Assembly (NCBI RefSeq): GCF_001258055.1
Contig: NZ_CVRM01000031.1
Coordinates: 372,001-436,000 of the forward strand
Direction of reading: 5' to 3'
DNA from: Phaeobacter italicus
GTDB taxonomy: Bacteria; Pseudomonadota; Alphaproteobacteria; Rhodobacterales; Rhodobacteraceae
DNA: 64,000 nucleotides
A program made the translations under genes and the position numbers. Below are positions 49,816 through 64,000 of the stretch, piece after piece (the stretch's first letter is position 1; each line of letters opens with the position of its first letter). The notes beneath the pieces were generated by a model. That model was given only the letters and a program-made list of their open reading frames with translations, was not told where the DNA came from and ran no database searches.

Positions 49816-49961
49816 GCGATACGACCGGCGCTTGCCCCGGGGTAGGCGCCAGCTAGCTATCTCGTGAACACAGAAACTGGGTGCGCCTCAACCGCGCGCC
49901 CGATTTCGATAAGCCAATTCACGTCGTGATCACGACCACAGAGTGACCCAGAGAGTGAGCG

Positions 49962-50903
49962 ATGACTGACGCAAGCATCAATGCAAGCACCGTCCGGGAA
50001 GGGGACGCGGAGTTCGGGGACTACTTTGCCCTGCTGAAACCGCGTGTCATGTCCCTTGTGGTGTTTACGGCGCTTGTTGGCCTGCTGGCCGCGCCGGTGG
50101 CCGTGCATCCCGTTGTGGGCTTTTGCGCAATCCTGTTCATTGCCATCGGCGGCGGTGCATCCGGTGCGCTGAACATGTGGTGGGATGCGGATATCGATCA
50201 GGTGATGAAACGCACCAAGTCGCGTCCGATCCCCGCAGGCAAGGTCGAACCGGGTGAAGCCCTGTCGCTGGGACTGGCGCTGTCGGGCATGTCCGTGATC
50301 ATGCTGGCGCTGGCAACGAATATCTTTGCCGGGGCCTTTCTGGCCTTCACCATCTTCTTTTACGTGGTGATCTATACCATGTGGCTGAAACGGGCGACGC
50401 CGCAGAACATCGTGATCGGTGGCGCGGCTGGTGCATTCCCGCCGGTGATCGGCTGGATCGCAGCGACCGGTTCGATGGCAATCGAACCCTGGCTGATGTT
50501 TGCCCTGACCTTCATGTGGACACCGCCCCATTTCTGGGCGCTGGCGCTGTTCATGCGCTCTGATTACGACGATGCCGGTGTGCCGATGCTGACCGTGACC
50601 CACGGCCGCCCGGCAACCCGTAAACATATCCTGATTTACACCATCCTGCTGGCGCTCCTGGCTGTTGGCACCGCCTTCTCTGGCGTGGGTGGCCCGATTT
50701 ACCTGGCCGTTGCTGTTGTGCTGAACGCCCTGTTCCTGCACGGCGCGTGGAAAATTTCGCGCCGCGACGAGAACGACAGCGAGGCGGACAATTTCAAGGT
50801 CGAGCGCAGCTTCTTCAAGCTGTCGCTGCTGTACCTTTTCCTTCACTTCGGTGCGATCCTCGCTGAGGCCGTGCTGAAGCCCTATGGCCTGGGAGGCTGG
50901 TAA
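49962..50903 (+). CDS. ctaB: Protoheme IX farnesyltransferase (heme O synthase)
   Basis: A 313-residue UbiA-family prenyltransferase that makes heme O for the oxidase. The prenyl-pyrophosphate motif is NMWWDADIDQVMKRTKSRPIP, and several membrane helices follow, including the FMWTPPHFWALALF segment. It lies 146 bases after ctaC and is coupled to the small gene at 50905. Confidence 0.95.
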   Translation: MTDASINASTVREGDAEFGDYFALLKPRVMSLVVFTALVGLLAAPVAVHPVVGFCAILFIAIGGGASGALNMWWDADIDQVMKRTKSRPIPAGKVEPGEALSLGLALSGMSVIMLALATNIFAGAFLAFTIFFYVVIYTMWLKRATPQNIVIGGAAGAFPPVIGWIAATGSMAIEPWLMFALTFMWTPPHFWALALFMRSDYDDAGVPMLTVTHGRPATRKHILIYTILLALLAVGTAFSGVGGPIYLAVAVVLNALFLHGAWKISRRDENDSEADNFKVERSFFKLSLLYLFLHFGAILAEAVLKPYGLGGW

Positions 50904-50904
50904 C

Positions 50905-51087
50905 ATGAGCTTGCGCAAAGAGCATGAGCTGCACCAGCGCCGCAAGGGTCGCAACGTGGGCGTCGGTGTCCTGTTGGCTTCTTTCGTGGTGCTGGTTCTG
51001 GCCTTGACCATCGTCAAGGTCACATCGGCAGGCTTCAAGTTCCCCAACACCTCCTCGGATGTGCAACAGACAGAGGGGCAAAACTGA
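50905..51087 (+). CDS. Small membrane protein of the oxidase cluster
   Basis: A 60-residue protein, MSLRKEHELHQRRKGRNVGV followed by one membrane helix (about 18-40) and a short tail. The start lies 1 base after the ctaB stop, and its TGA overlaps the ctaG ATG, so all three are coupled. Similar small single-pass proteins sit at this place in related oxidase operons and probably help assembly; I cannot name it with certainty. Confidence 0.8.
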   Translation: MSLRKEHELHQRRKGRNVGVGVLLASFVVLVLALTIVKVTSAGFKFPNTSSDVQQTEGQN

Positions 51088-51674
51088 TGGCTTTGCAAGG
51101 ACCGCAGAAAACCGTTGTTCAGTTGGTTGGCGTCGTCGTGGTGATGGGGGCGCTCTCCTGGGCGTCGGTTCCGTTCTACGACTGGTTCTGCCGTGTGACT
51201 GGCTTTGGCGGTGTGACAGGTGTCGCATCCCAGGGCTCTGACACCATTCTGGACAAGACCATCACAGTGCGTTTCGACGCATCCAAGGAACGCGGCATGC
51301 CCTGGGAATTCACCCCCAAGGTGCGCGAGATGGAAATCAAGATCGGCGAGACCGGTCTGGCCTTTTACGAGGCCTACAATCCCACAGACCGCCCCGTAGC
51401 CGGGCAGGCGTCCTATAACGTGACGCCCTATTCCGCCGGTGGCTACTTTGACAAGATCGCATGCTTCTGCTTCGAAGAGCAGGTGCTGCAACCGGGTGAG
51501 CGGGTTGAAATGCCCGTAACCTTCTTCGTGGATCCTGAAATTGTTGAGGATCGCGATGGAAAATACGTGCATACGATCACGCTGTCGTACACATTCTATG
51601 AAATCGATCTGCCCGAAGGCTATGCGGCCCTCGAGACCGGTGATAAAGCCGGGGCAGACACAATCACGAACTAG
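51087..51674 (+). CDS. ctaG: Cytochrome c oxidase assembly protein CtaG (Cox11)
   Basis: A 195-residue copper chaperone for the CuB site of subunit I. One N-terminal membrane helix is followed by a periplasmic domain with the copper-binding CFCF motif (IACFCFEEQVLQPGERVEMP) and FVDPEIVED. Its ATG overlaps the stop of the upstream small gene. Confidence 0.95.
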   Translation: MALQGPQKTVVQLVGVVVVMGALSWASVPFYDWFCRVTGFGGVTGVASQGSDTILDKTITVRFDASKERGMPWEFTPKVREMEIKIGETGLAFYEAYNPTDRPVAGQASYNVTPYSAGGYFDKIACFCFEEQVLQPGERVEMPVTFFVDPEIVEDRDGKYVHTITLSYTFYEIDLPEGYAALETGDKAGADTITN

Positions 51675-51697
51675 GCCGCTAGGTGAGGGACACTTAA

Positions 51698-52513
51698 ATG
51701 GCGCACGCTAAAAATCACGACTATCATATTCTTCCGCCGTCGATCTGGCCGCTGCTCAGCTCCGTCGGTACCTTCATCATGCTGTTCGGTGCGGTTCTGT
51801 GGATGCACGGCGTCACCGCATGGGCTTTCTGGGGCGGCTTTGTCATGGTGCTTTACAGCGCCTATGCCTGGTGGGCCGAAGTTGTGGTAGAGGCCCGTCA
51901 GGGCGATCACACCCCGGTTGTCCGCATCGGTCTGCGCTATGGCTTCATCCTCTTCGTGATGTCCGAAGTCATGTTCTTCTTCGCGTGGTTCTGGTCGTTC
52001 TTCAAGCACGCCATCTACCCGATGGAGACCTATGTCGGCACCGAATATGTCGCACCGGAGATCTACCCGGTTGACGCATTCCACCTGCCGCTGATCAACA
52101 CTCTGGTCCTGCTGCTGTCCGGCTGTGCGGTGACCTGGGCGCACCACGCGCTGGTCCACAACAACGACCGCAAGGCGCTGATCCAGGGCCTGGCCATCGG
52201 TATCGTTCTGGGCGTGTTCTTCACCTTCCTGCAGGGTTACGAATACTACCACCTGCTGCACGAAGGCTGGCAGTTCGGCGGTGATGAGTTCTACTCGAAC
52301 TTCTTCATGGCAACCGGCTTCCACGGCTTCCACGTGATCATCGGCACCATCTTCCTGACTGTCTGCCTCATCCGCGCGATGAAGGGTGATTTCACGCCGA
52401 AGCAGCACGTCGGTTTCGAAGCGGCAGCTTGGTACTGGCACTTTGTTGACGTGGTGTGGCTGTTCCTCTTCGTGGCGGTCTACATCTGGGGCACCGCGGG
52501 CCTGGCCCACTAA
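51698..52513 (+). CDS. ctaE: Cytochrome c oxidase subunit III
   Basis: A 271-residue, seven-helix subunit. Typical features are [16 protein letters not shown] near the start, [18 protein letters not shown] and the conserved [14 protein letters not shown] and [15 protein letters not shown] helices. It closes the main cta cluster and is followed by a hairpin before the SURF1 gene. Confidence 0.97.
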
Positions 52514-52580
52514 GCCTTTTCAAATTGTACGGGGCACAGGTTTTTGGTTCCAAATCCTGACCTGACCCCGTAAGACATGC

Positions 52581-52607
52581 AGCGCGCGGAGCCATGCTCC
52601 GCGCGCT
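52581..52607 (+). terminator. Hairpin between ctaE and SURF1
   Basis: AGCGCGCGGAGC-CAT-GCTCCGCGCGCT followed by TTCTC, a perfect 12-bp stem 67 bases after ctaE and 23 before the SURF1 ATG. It may partially terminate, giving less of the assembly factor than of the structural subunit. Confidence 0.65.
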
Positions 52608-52630
52608 TTCTCATTCGCAAGGACAGCGGT

Positions 52631-53302
52631 ATGCGGCGGTTGATCTTTCTTTCCCTTGTTGGCGGTCTGGGCCTAGCGGCGCTGGTGTCGCTCGGGGTCT
52701 GGCAGATCCAGCGACTGGCGTGGAAGGGCGAGCTGCTGCAAACGATCGAGACCCGCATCGCGGCGGCACCGGTTGCCTTGCCCGACGCACCCAGCGAGAC
52801 CACGGACCGCTATCGTGCCGTCCGTGTAAACGGCGAGATCGAACCGGGTGAACTGCATGTTTTCTGGGTCACCAAAGCGGCGGAGACGGGCTATCGCGTC
52901 ATCGCCCCCTTCGTGACCGAAGATGGCCGCCGGGTGTTGTTGGACCGTGGTTTTATTCCGTCCGCCGCCAAGGCCGAAGACCGCCCCATCGGTGGTGCCA
53001 CCGTGACCGGAAACCTCCTGTGGCCGGACGAAGGTGACTGGACCACACCAGAGCCTGATACCGCCGCCAATATCCTCTATGCCCGCGACATTGCCTATAT
53101 GTCGGACAAGCTGGGCACAGAGCCCGTTCTGATCGTGGCCCGCGACAGCGCAGCGGCCGGGATCACCGCCCAGCCTGTGACAACAGCGGGTATTCAGAAC
53201 AATCACTTGCAATACGCGATCACCTGGTTTTCGCTGGCCCTGATCTGGGCCGCCATGACCACCTATTTCCTGTGGCGCTCGCGCCCAAAATCCGAAGGCT
53301 GA
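52631..53302 (+). CDS. SURF1-family cytochrome oxidase assembly protein
   Basis: A 223-residue protein with membrane helices at each end (LIFLSLVGGLGLAALVSLGVWQ and YAITWFSLALIWAAMTTYFLW) and a periplasmic loop with the SURF1 motifs RYRAVRVNGEIEPGE and VLLDRGFIP. The C-terminal NNHLQYAITW is conserved. It helps insert heme a. The start at 52631 restores the usual N-terminal helix. Confidence 0.92.
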   Translation: MRRLIFLSLVGGLGLAALVSLGVWQIQRLAWKGELLQTIETRIAAAPVALPDAPSETTDRYRAVRVNGEIEPGELHVFWVTKAAETGYRVIAPFVTEDGRRVLLDRGFIPSAAKAEDRPIGGATVTGNLLWPDEGDWTTPEPDTAANILYARDIAYMSDKLGTEPVLIVARDSAAAGITAQPVTTAGIQNNHLQYAITWFSLALIWAAMTTYFLWRSRPKSEG

Positions 53303-60967: not shown

Positions 60968-61855
60968 TCAGCCCAGGAGGCGCCCCGCAACCGCATCCAG
61001 TTTGGCCAGAAGAGCGGGGTCGCGTTTTTCAGGCGCGGTCATGATCGCGTATTCCAGCGCCTTGTCGCAGCCATGCGGGCAATCCGCACGGGTCTGCCCC
61101 AACAGCGCAGGCAGGCGGCGCACCAACTCGCGCCCATTGGCGGAATTGCCCTGCAGGGTGGCGATGATATCGGTGATCTCCACCGCGCCATGTTCCGGAT
61201 GCCAGCTGTCATAGTCGGTGACCATCGCGATGGAGGCGTAGCACAGCTCTGCCTCGCGGGCGAGTTTGGCCTCTGGCATGTTGGTCATGCCGATCACGTC
61301 ACAGCCCCAGCTGCGGTACATCTTGCTTTCCGCCATTGATGAAAACTGCGGCCCCTCCATGCAGAGATAGGTACCGCCGCGATGCACATTGATGCCTGCA
61401 TCGCGCGCCGCGGTCTCTGCTGCATCGGACAGCCGTTCGCAGGTGGGGTGCGCCACGCTGACATGAGCCACGCAGCCGGTGCCAAAAAAGCTCTTATCGC
61501 GGGCAAATGTCCGGTCGATGAACTGGTCGACAACCACGAAATCCCCCGGCGCCATTTCCTCGCGGAAGGAGCCACAGGCAGAAATCGAAAACACATCGGT
61601 GACGCCCAGACGCTTTAGCGCGTCGATATTGGCGCGATAGGGAACTTCGGTCGGGGAATGCACATGGCCGCGCCCGTGACGGGGCAGAAAGGCCATCTTC
61701 ACGCCGTCCAGCGTGCCGGTCAGGATCTGATCCGAAGGCGCCCCCCAGGGTGTCTCGACCGAGACCCACTCGGCATTCTGCAAACCGTCGATTTCATAAA
61801 GACCCGAGCCGCCGATCACGGCGATCATGGTGTCGCGAGAGGTTGAAGTGGTCAC
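60968..61855 (-). CDS. mtnP: S-methyl-5'-thioadenosine phosphorylase
   Basis: A 295-residue enzyme of the methionine salvage pathway. The phosphate motif MIAVIGGSGLYEIDGL is at the N-terminus, and conserved blocks include CMEGPQFSSMAESKMYRSWGCDVIGMTNMPEAKLAREAELCYASIAMVTDYD in outline. I chose the GTG at 61855 because AGGAGG lies 7 bases upstream; an ATG at 61828 lacks one. It releases adenine that the Apt product can recycle. Confidence 0.95.
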   Translation of the reverse strand: MTTSTSRDTMIAVIGGSGLYEIDGLQNAEWVSVETPWGAPSDQILTGTLDGVKMAFLPRHGRGHVHSPTEVPYRANIDALKRLGVTDVFSISACGSFREEMAPGDFVVVDQFIDRTFARDKSFFGTGCVAHVSVAHPTCERLSDAAETAARDAGINVHRGGTYLCMEGPQFSSMAESKMYRSWGCDVIGMTNMPEAKLAREAELCYASIAMVTDYDSWHPEHGAVEITDIIATLQGNSANGRELVRRLPALLGQTRADCPHGCDKALEYAIMTAPEKRDPALLAKLDAVAGRLLG

Positions 61856-61963
61856 GCGCTGCCCTCCTGGTGATGCTGGTCCGGTTGTGCCGATGATTGG
61901 CGCAGTTGGCAAGCACAGAGCCAAGGGAGGAGAGATGAGGACAGGTTGGGATGCCTTAGGCGA

Positions 61964-61986
61964 GAGTATTTGGGGAAAGATGACAG
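61964..61986 (+). repeat. Dispersed intergenic repeat tail, degenerate copy
   Basis: GAGTATTTGGGG-AAAGATGACAG resembles 22416-22440 (GAGTATTT...AAAGGTGACAG). Here it is not downstream of a plus-strand gene and has no clear hairpin, so it seems to be a relic or independent element. Confidence 0.5.
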
Positions 61987-61993
61987 GCGGGGC

Positions 61994-63025
61994 TCACTCG
62001 CGCCGGATGATCCCGGTCAAAGCCGCTGCGCCAAGGGCGGTGACAATCCAGCCAAAGAGCGTGAAGCCCCAGCGCGCCCACCAGAGATGCCAGCCACATG
62101 GCCCGCGCGTCGTGGAGGGGGCCCAGGCATCGGTCTGGCCTAGGTCAATGATGGGGACGACAAGATCTGCGGCATAAGCGTAGCGATTGAAGCTTTCCCA
62201 GTCGCGGCCAATGGTGGAGGTCAGGCTCCAATCTTTGGCGGGGTTGGGATGAGGCGGATAGCTATGATCTGCGCTGTATGTCGCCCAGCTTTCTGATTGT
62301 AGCGCAACTGCCGAATTGGGGGCAAAGCTGCCTTCCTCCCAGGCGAAGTGGGCGACGGTGGTGGCGAGAAGCCACAGGAGCACCAAGGCGATCAAGCTGT
62401 TTCCGGGGCGAAAGCCATGGCCCGTCAGGAGCAGGGAGAGGCTGTGCCAAATCCAAAGGCGGGGCGTTGTTGCCATGGCCCACAGGCGCTGGGCGCGATT
62501 TTTGGCGTTCGCAATGCGCTCTTTGCGGGCGTGGTGTCGCAGCTTTTTTCCGAGTGCGACCCGGACTTTGGTTGCTTCCTCCTCATGTCCCATTTCGTAC
62601 AACACCTTTGCGAGTTGTTTGTAGGGTTGGGGGAAGAATTCTCGTTCAGTTGGCGTTAGACTTTCGCCTTGTTCGAGCCATATCAGCCGCGTCTTGGCGT
62701 CGGTTGCTCCTTGAATTCTTGAATAGGTGAAGCCGTCTAGGTCGAGCTTTGGTGTGTTTCTGTGTCTGTCGCTAGCGGCGAGGTTTGTTCCACAGTCGCA
62801 GAATGTCGTGGCGCTGAGGTTCGTCAATTTTACATTGCCGGCACAGTCAGTGATGTCGGCAAAGTAAAATGTCTTACCGATAGTCGCATCAGTCAGATCG
62901 AGTGCGATGTGCGCAGAGCTGTCGTTTGCTGACTTGCTGACGTTGCATTGCGCGTGAGCTGCAGCACCGCAAAAAGAGGCGCACTGGAAATTGAGCTCAC
63001 CGCCTACTTTCAGATTGTTCATCAT
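61994..63025 (-). pseudogene. Pentapeptide-like membrane protein, C-terminal part of a frameshifted gene
   Basis: A 343-residue frame opening at ATG 63025. The N-terminal 90 residues have a pentapeptide-like beta-helix character (NNLKVGGELNFQCASF, LDLTDATIGKTFYF, VKLTNLSATTF). A linker follows, then membrane segments near residues 200-230 and 310-335. Reading this frame upstream of the ATG continues the repeat pattern (DGALLRETHFLGAVMMNNLK). That strongly suggests the 63022-63603 frame and this one were once one gene, now split by a one-base shift. Confidence 0.65.
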
Positions 63026-63603
63026 AACCGCGCCGAGAAAATGGGTTTCACGTAGAAGAGCCCCATCACGGATCTTTCGTCTTGCAGGTTCAGGGTAAAC
63101 GGTTCAGTTTGATCGGGCTCAACGGGAACTGGTTCTTTGGTGAACCCAAAAGAGCTGCCATCTGCATTTAGTTGCCCGCCAAGCTCTGCTCCGGACGCTT
63201 GAAAATACGGGATGCGGCAGTGGGTCAGCTGTAGGTCTTGCGTCCATCGGGTGCTCGTGGCTTTGAAACCGCATTCAAAAACGCAGTTGTGGGCATGGAA
63301 GCTGGGCAACTCAGCCTGATGCGACAGGTCAAGCGGCCCACTGATAAAACAACTCTCGATGCGAAGGGTCTGGAGATCACTCGGATCAAACCTGAAGTTT
63401 AACAAAATGGTTTTGAGAACGGTGGCACGAATATGTCTATCACCGTATTCGCCAGCGATGACTTCGGACCATGTTATATAGGGCAGTTTAGATTCGCCGG
63501 GATTCGAAACGAGATCTTCAGCGCGTCTCAAACGCTCGATTAACGCCCTCTCCGCCTTGGTGGCAGTTGGCTCAATCTCGTCCCAGCTCTTAAACCGCGG
63601 CAT
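63022..63603 (-). pseudogene. Pentapeptide-like protein, N-terminal part of a frameshifted gene
   Basis: From ATG 63603 (MPRFKSWDEIEPTATKAERALIERL), about 193 residues. The last two-thirds have the same beta-helix style repeats (LRIESCFISGPLDLSHQAEL, FECGFKATSTRWTQDLQLTHC, AELGGQLNADGSSFG). Its final 16 residues do not fit the repeat, while the other frame does. The stop overlaps the next ATG (ATGA), so translational coupling of two real genes is the alternative. Confidence 0.6.
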
Positions 63604-63720
63604 GTCAAATCCATTGGGTGCAATGACGCGACAGTTTCGTGAAAACACCGGCAAGTCAAGGTGGGGCGAGCTGCAATCCCTTAACAACCGTTTAAGTTTA
63701 ATGTCAGCAGCGCTGCCGCA

Positions 63721-63740
63721 ATGTTTCGCGTGCGAAACAT
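63721..63740. repeat. 20-bp palindromic element, copy 2
   Basis: ATGTTTCGCGTGCGAAACAT is the exact reverse complement of copy 1 at 8573-8592. It lies 118-137 bases upstream of the 63603 gene start and about 135 bases upstream of the SulP-like gene. Confidence 0.8.
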
Positions 63741-63874
63741 TCGGACAGGAGGGCTGACCCATCGGGGCAGAGCCCCCACGGGCAAGCCATGCAAAGGGCC
63801 GCGCCCTTGCCCCAATGGCGGTTTTCCGCTAGGGGCGGCGCTAACATGACCCTTTCCCGATCACAGGTGACCCC

Positions 63875-64000
63875 ATGACCCGCGGCATAATGGCGACGCT
63901 CGCCAAACAGATTTCACCGCCCAATCTCTCCATCATGCAGGATGAGGGCTTTACCGTCTCTCGCGTGCGCACCGAATTGCTGTCCGGCCTGACCGTGGCG
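63875..64000 (+). CDS. SulP-family anion permease, 5' end only
   Basis: The last 126 bases encode 42 residues: MTRGIMATLAKQISPPNLSI and a basic segment ending RTELLSGLTVA, which leads into the first membrane helix in SulP family members. The gene runs off the window. The substrate cannot be judged from this fragment. Confidence 0.6.
   Translation, partial: MTRGIMATLAKQISPPNLSIMQDEGFTVSRVRTELLSGLTVA

Follow-up and report, generated by a model that had tools for sequence, protein, structure and literature searches.

A probable recent one-base pseudogene of a beta-solenoid membrane protein between sulP and mtnP in Phaeobacter italicus

By comparing a stretch of 64,000 nucleotides from Phaeobacter italicus (hereafter, the window) with related genomes, we found that two adjacent minus-strand reading frames, A and B, are the two pieces of what is a single intact gene in the relatives. 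We consider it quite probable that this is a young pseudogene of a dispensable membrane protein, split by a one-base change. The first-pass annotation of this DNA had listed a decaying gene, a phase-variable tract, a sequencing error and programmed frameshifting as possible readings, of which gene decay is the best supported; its central claim of a one-base frameshift within one gene is borne out by the agreement of the single open frame in relatives, the repeat profile and the codon-usage switch described below. As a frameshift the case is ordinary, being either another young pseudogene or a slip in the assembly. The two frames should be annotated as pieces of a single gene, not as two proteins, and the sulP-mtnP locus that holds this gene presents a series of states in related genomes: intact, one-base break, internal deletion, remnant and absent.

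Under the favoured explanation, a single gene of ~535 codons would have encoded a protein with pentapeptide-like repeats forming a beta-solenoid at the N-terminus and a membrane domain after it, and would have been recently inactivated by the net loss of one base, most likely at positions 63073-63085. As read from the sequence, translation from 63603 leaves the native frame and stops at 63022, yielding a 193-residue fragment without the membrane domain. The 3' part would stay unreached unless ribosomes reinitiate at the ATGA overlap of the two frames; as a counter-point to the pseudogene reading, this overlap would permit some frame-B product. The mutation would have been tolerated since the gene is probably dispensable, as its repeated loss in relatives suggests.

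The split gene and its counterparts in related genomes

The coordinates of both frames and of their ATGA overlap, as given in the first-pass annotation, are correct on the minus strand (Table 1). Frame A follows the native frame to about 63085 and then continues as an out-of-frame tail of up to 19 residues. The split gene is located between a transporter gene of the sulP family and mtnP; the family name of the former is taken from its homologue in G003, which is cut at 388 residues and has a score below the cut-off of the model. A second copy of the split gene was sought in the window's own genome (a 37-contig draft of 4.05 Mb), and none was found.

Table 1. Features of the split gene and its flanks (positions in the window)
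Feature	Position	Strand	Details
Frame A, 5' part of split gene	63022..63603	minus	193 codons + stop; ATG at 63603, stop at 63024-63022
Frame B, 3' part of split gene	61994..63025	minus	343 codons + stop; ATG at 63025, stop ending at 61994; -1 relative to frame A
ATGA shared by the stop of frame A and the start of frame B	63022..63025	minus	not conserved in 4 intact congeners
Favoured interval of -1 frame change	63073..63085	minus	DNA net one base short vs relatives; holds GAAAG 63074-63078
Beta-solenoid (pentapeptide-like) repeat region	62741..63290	minus	approximate extent; boundaries inferred from alignments
Predicted transmembrane segment	62342..62398	minus	frame B residues 210-228, mean hydropathy 2.07
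Predicted transmembrane segment	62006..62062	minus	frame B residues 322-340, mean hydropathy 1.84
mtnP, S-methyl-5'-thioadenosine phosphorylase	60968..61828	minus	flanking gene, synteny anchor
sulP-family transporter	63875..64000	plus	flanking gene, 5' start; continues past window end

Using frame B as a query, we obtained matches in six of the seven genus genomes searched, counting the window's own. Four of these seven genomes have a single open frame, which counted from the aligned ATG comprises 554 codons in G004, 550 in G005, 511 in G002 and 510 in G006. In alignments with the intact proteins, frame A covers their N-terminal part and frame B the remainder, so that the combined translation, whose alignment with full-length homologues had been proposed earlier, corresponds to single proteins of 510-554 codons in four congeners. 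None of these four shares the frame break, and none has a methionine at the position aligned with the start of frame B. Relatives with two separate genes and the same ATGA overlap, which had been named as evidence against a split gene, were looked for in G002, G004, G005 and G006 and not found. The window gene thereby resembles the coding sequences interrupted by single-base indels in two respects: i) its two adjacent frames correspond to one intact gene in relatives, and ii) its break has no recoding motif and is unshared by relatives. According to the excerpt of the source used here, single unshared frame breaks are likely to represent an indel mutation or a sequencing error (PMC3711429). 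We see no essential difference from bacterial pseudogenes formed by single-base indels, the window case being a young one with no further stop.

The G005 protein has a match in 79 of 394 genomes of the wider family, a count that includes G005 and the window's own genome. The 28 loci kept from this search (L010-L037) have one open frame of 467-1023 codons that is stop-free in the listed match; these are best matches and thus biased to intact copies. Both records of uncultured Tateyamaria contain a 579-codon copy in a single open frame, and in the one record whose context was read this copy lies between a sulP-like gene and mtnP. The family alignment used below comprises 26 of 34 loci, as L018, L019 and L029 were missed by the motif filter, and L011, L015, L020, L022 and L034 were left out by hand.

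An intact copy is absent from three of the seven genomes of the genus, namely the window's own genome, G001 and G003. The G001 genome retains a remnant frame of 201 codons, from which the middle of the gene is deleted (L007/L058), and G003 has no match, its sulP and mtnP genes being about 345 bases apart (L049:1164-1500). In Phaeobacter marinintestinus (L045:4747-5114), 32 N-terminal and 37 C-terminal residues are recognizable in different frames between sulP and mtnP. Six loci were picked because they had been flagged with stops or short matches, and they give no rate of loss. Five of them are broken copies or remnants (G218, taken as the P. marinintestinus record, L066, and G128, G251, G375 and G211), and the sixth, in G116, contains one stop close to its 5' end, possibly ahead of the true start. 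The lesions differ among the copies in G128, G251, G375 and G211 (L067, L068, L069 and L071). Within the six fetched stretches, mtnP and sulP were found for G218 only, and not in G128, G251, G375 or G211. Because of the repeated loss in relatives, we regard the gene as dispensable.

Position of the frame change and age of the break

Frame B is open upstream as far as 63103 and both frames are open over 63025-63103, which places the frame change within 63022-63103. In a junction test at the protein level, frame A was joined to frame B at 27 positions and scored with a repeat profile derived from relatives alone. Scores of 23.2-26.6 bits were obtained for the five junctions at 63073-63085, with the top at 63082, and of 19.2-22.8 bits for the remaining 22; as unjoined controls, frame A alone scores 4.8 and the extended frame B alone 16.6. 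These sequence scores favour a frame change at 63073-63085, with a small margin at the edges of the interval. Counted by hand, the distance from LNLQ to the next GG is 28 residues in the repeats of G005 and G006, and it is also 28 residues in the window if the DNA is net one base short. In a codon-usage scan, the preferred frame changes from A to B between 63080 and 63050. The first-pass annotation had attributed the frame change to a missing A at a GAAAG run, which on the forward strand is the CTTTC at 63074-63078. This location is supported to the resolution of the favoured interval, inside which the run lies, and not to the single base. The additional claim that frame B continues the repeat pattern when read upstream of its ATG also holds: among 3000 residue shuffles only 11, and among 3000 random stop-free frames only 4, reach the repeat score of the joined sequence, and a chance fit of these residues is ruled out by the shuffles.

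No further stop is present in 533 codons of the split gene. Given that 3.55% of random substitutions create a stop, this bounds the neutral divergence since the break at about 0.053 substitutions per site, assuming neutrality of both pieces from the break onwards. The pairwise synonymous distance between the window and G006 is 0.51 for sulP and 0.63 for mtnP, so the bound amounts to about a tenth of this distance and, at equal rates, to about a fifth of the time since the window and G006 diverged. Of 58 family-conserved columns, five are changed in the window pieces (three of 10 for frame A and two of 48 for frame B), and the 26 intact members, each left out in turn, show 0-6 differences at 57-61 conserved columns. 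Since there is no further stop in the 533 codons and the conserved residues are largely kept, the break appears to be recent.

The dN/dS ratios, many of which involve distances near saturation, vary along the gene: in the C-terminal block they are 0.24-0.26 for the window versus G004 and G005 and 0.15-0.30 for other pairs; the whole frame B gives 0.41-0.42 versus G004 and G005, and frame A up to 63085 gives 0.48 versus G006, intact pairs being at 0.21-0.32 in both cases where measurable; and the first 120 codons give 0.62 for the window versus G006 and 0.10-0.40 for intact pairs. The raised ratios and the three changed columns out of ten in frame A hint that constraint had relaxed before the break, or that the repeats have diversified.

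Alternatives to gene decay

The gene may be intact in the organism, one base having been lost in the assembly. Such an error would agree with the draft state of the assembly (37 contigs), with the absence of a second lesion in 533 codons and with the retention of most conserved residues; however, the interval 63073-63085 contains no homopolymer of four or more bases, the break sits in a gene that is also lost in relatives, and the genes at >=75% identity in the rest of the window have no internal stops in the inner 85% of their alignments. The latter control is based on ~58 kb each of syntenic G005 and G004 sequence aligned with window positions 733-61828, and comprises 43 genes (15,397 codons) versus G005 and 46 genes (16,063 codons) versus G004, largely the same window genes; it covers window genes of at least 150 codons and at least 75% identity, beyond the first 15% of each alignment. 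Two rows of this strict control had a second frame nearby, one of which is an upstream neighbouring gene, while the other, at 62-79% identity, was set aside as a probable antisense frame. A loose filter, in which 101 frames were compared, flagged 23 rows, of which many were low-identity frames or stops lying in stop-to-stop extensions, and a three-frame row over 49953-52809 was set aside as antisense, as it lies opposite conserved-looking plus-strand frames. A generally poor assembly is ruled out by this gene comparison, which revealed no other confirmed break over the rest of the window, and we consider loss of a single base in the assembly unlikely.

The split could instead have been kept, its halves being made as separate subunits through termination-reinitiation at the ATGA overlap. 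Such translational coupling would make use of the overlapping stop and start at 63022-63025 and would be consistent with the constraint still acting on the C-terminal block, yet the split and the methionine are absent in all four intact congeners, no clear Shine-Dalgarno sequence is visible by eye upstream of 63025, and frame A ends in an out-of-frame tail. The excerpt of the source used here gives conserved co-location of stop and start as the criterion for coupling (PMC3711429), and we rate this explanation as very improbable. Programmed -1 ribosomal frameshifting, which would join both frames, fits the -1 position of frame B and the overlap of open frames over 63025-63103; against it, a zero-frame X XXY YYZ heptamer is absent over 63112-63019, the single weak near-match at 63049 falls outside the mapped interval, and the relatives need no shift. 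This mechanism, already described as less likely in the first-pass annotation, is rejected on the lack of a slippery heptamer at the frame change, and we assign it a minimal probability. An equally slight chance is left for a phase-variable tract that would switch the gene on and off by slippage. The membrane type of the protein and three consecutive A at the place of the frame change speak for it, but no run of four or more bases occurs in 63073-63085, the runs of four at 63064 and 63041 lying outside, and tracts of seven or more are named as the mark of phase variation in the same excerpt (PMC3711429); with no homopolymer tract in the interval, this earlier suggestion is also discarded. In sum, the lack of a heptamer, of a run of at least four bases in the interval and of the methionine in relatives makes programmed frameshifting, phase variation and a conserved pair of genes unlikely.

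Protein family, fold and mosaic structure

Neither frame A nor frame B matches Pfam. Pentapeptide_3 (PF13576) is matched by 20 of the 26 family members at E up to 0.1 (best 1.3e-11), so that the label 'pentapeptide-like' used in the first-pass annotation is fair, though neither window piece matches this domain. Further likeness to pentapeptide repeat proteins comes from the structure model of a Tateyamaria relative (L043), which predicts a beta-solenoid at about residues 72-340 with pLDDT mostly of 83-93 and dips of 51-77 in ten-residue blocks. Beyond residue 340 the model consists of low-confidence helices, 17 of 24 ten-residue blocks being under pLDDT 50; it was built on four sequences, and the membrane domain is not read from it. 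Two hydropathy peaks in frame B would suit membrane helices. A Foldseek search with the L043 model gave a best E of 0.018 and no hit at or below 0.001. When Foldseek's own hits were re-examined with VIA-align 2, the model came out among parallel beta-helices, with phage tailspikes at the top (Z 19.4); HetL (3du1) aligns with the N-terminal part of the Tateyamaria relative at Z 17.2 and 3.2 A over 232 residues. In contrast to a specific likeness to pentapeptide repeat proteins, phage tailspikes and other parallel beta-helices thus score equal or higher. The model suggests a parallel beta-helix fold class, within which several families tie, so neither family nor function follows from it. Our best guess from the fold, a weak one, is that the solenoid may bind a partner at the membrane.

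The combination of pentapeptide repeats and membrane spans is also found in HglK of Anabaena, as described in the excerpt used here (PMC8145042). In contrast to the window gene, the same description places the four spans of HglK at the N-terminus and the repeats at the C-terminus, which is the reversed order (PMC8145042). For the gene itself, neither PADLOC nor NCBIfam yielded a useful match, and no NCBIfam model of their own was found for the 26 family members. Two matches in a sequence search of solved structures (E 0.53 and 0.66) and a weak HopJ match in a G004 copy (E 0.04, below cut-off) were taken as chance. With the search terms used, no paper on the gene family was found.

Among the 20 records listed, of 30 matching plasmid records, relatives at 22-29% identity occur in Rhizobium, Streptomyces, Rhodococcus, Acaryochloris and others; judged by these sequences, the family of proteins extends far beyond this bacterial family. 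Three of these 20 records, from Streptomyces plasmids, are labelled 'oxidoreductase' or 'membrane-associated oxidoreductase', and the remaining 17 are hypothetical proteins or have no annotation. The three labelled proteins are alignable over 65-93% of the query at 24-27% identity. We do not adopt the oxidoreductase label for the family, as no domain found here backs it.

Comparison of the two ends of the gene reveals a mosaic. Over the first 120 codons, identity to the window is 78% for G006 and 29-38% for G002, G004 and G005, these three sharing 59-68% among themselves. Over the C-terminal block, identity to the window is 85-86% for G004 and G005 and 56-57% for G002 and G006, the latter two sharing 85%. 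All four combinations of the two N-terminal and two C-terminal types are found among five congeners (the window, L003, L004, L005 and L006), and we conclude that recombination has occurred inside the gene. By its sulP gene, the window clearly groups with G006 (97% identity vs 92-93% to others), and by mtnP it is only slightly nearer to G006 (dS of 0.63 vs 0.64 or more, with 95% identity shared with G002). The repeat region is highly variable between relatives: identity in 40-residue windows of the repeats between the N-terminal and C-terminal blocks is 17-42%, and that of the whole neighbouring genes is 91-98%.

Given the four-way mosaic, the very variable repeats between conserved neighbours and the repeated loss, the sulP-mtnP locus could be regarded as encoding a domain-shuffled, polymorphic beta-solenoid membrane protein under diversifying selection, for instance a putative surface receptor exploited by phages or rivals, so that the frameshift would be a selected loss and not neutral decay. 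We consider this quite unlikely. Apart from the pseudogene itself, the locus represents a widespread family that has no curated model of its own and mixes its domains by recombination.

An Rfam search of positions 61800-64000 found nothing at gathering scores. A promoter and terminator scan detected one promoter-like site (0.6 in shuffles) and five terminator-like sites (2.3 in shuffles), none of which was used in the analysis. The region 63604-63762, upstream of the ATG at 63603, has similar sequence in congeners, and for the same-frame upstream extension of 63603 the starts are TTG in G004 and G005 and ATG in the window; this region may represent a longer N terminus or a conserved leader.
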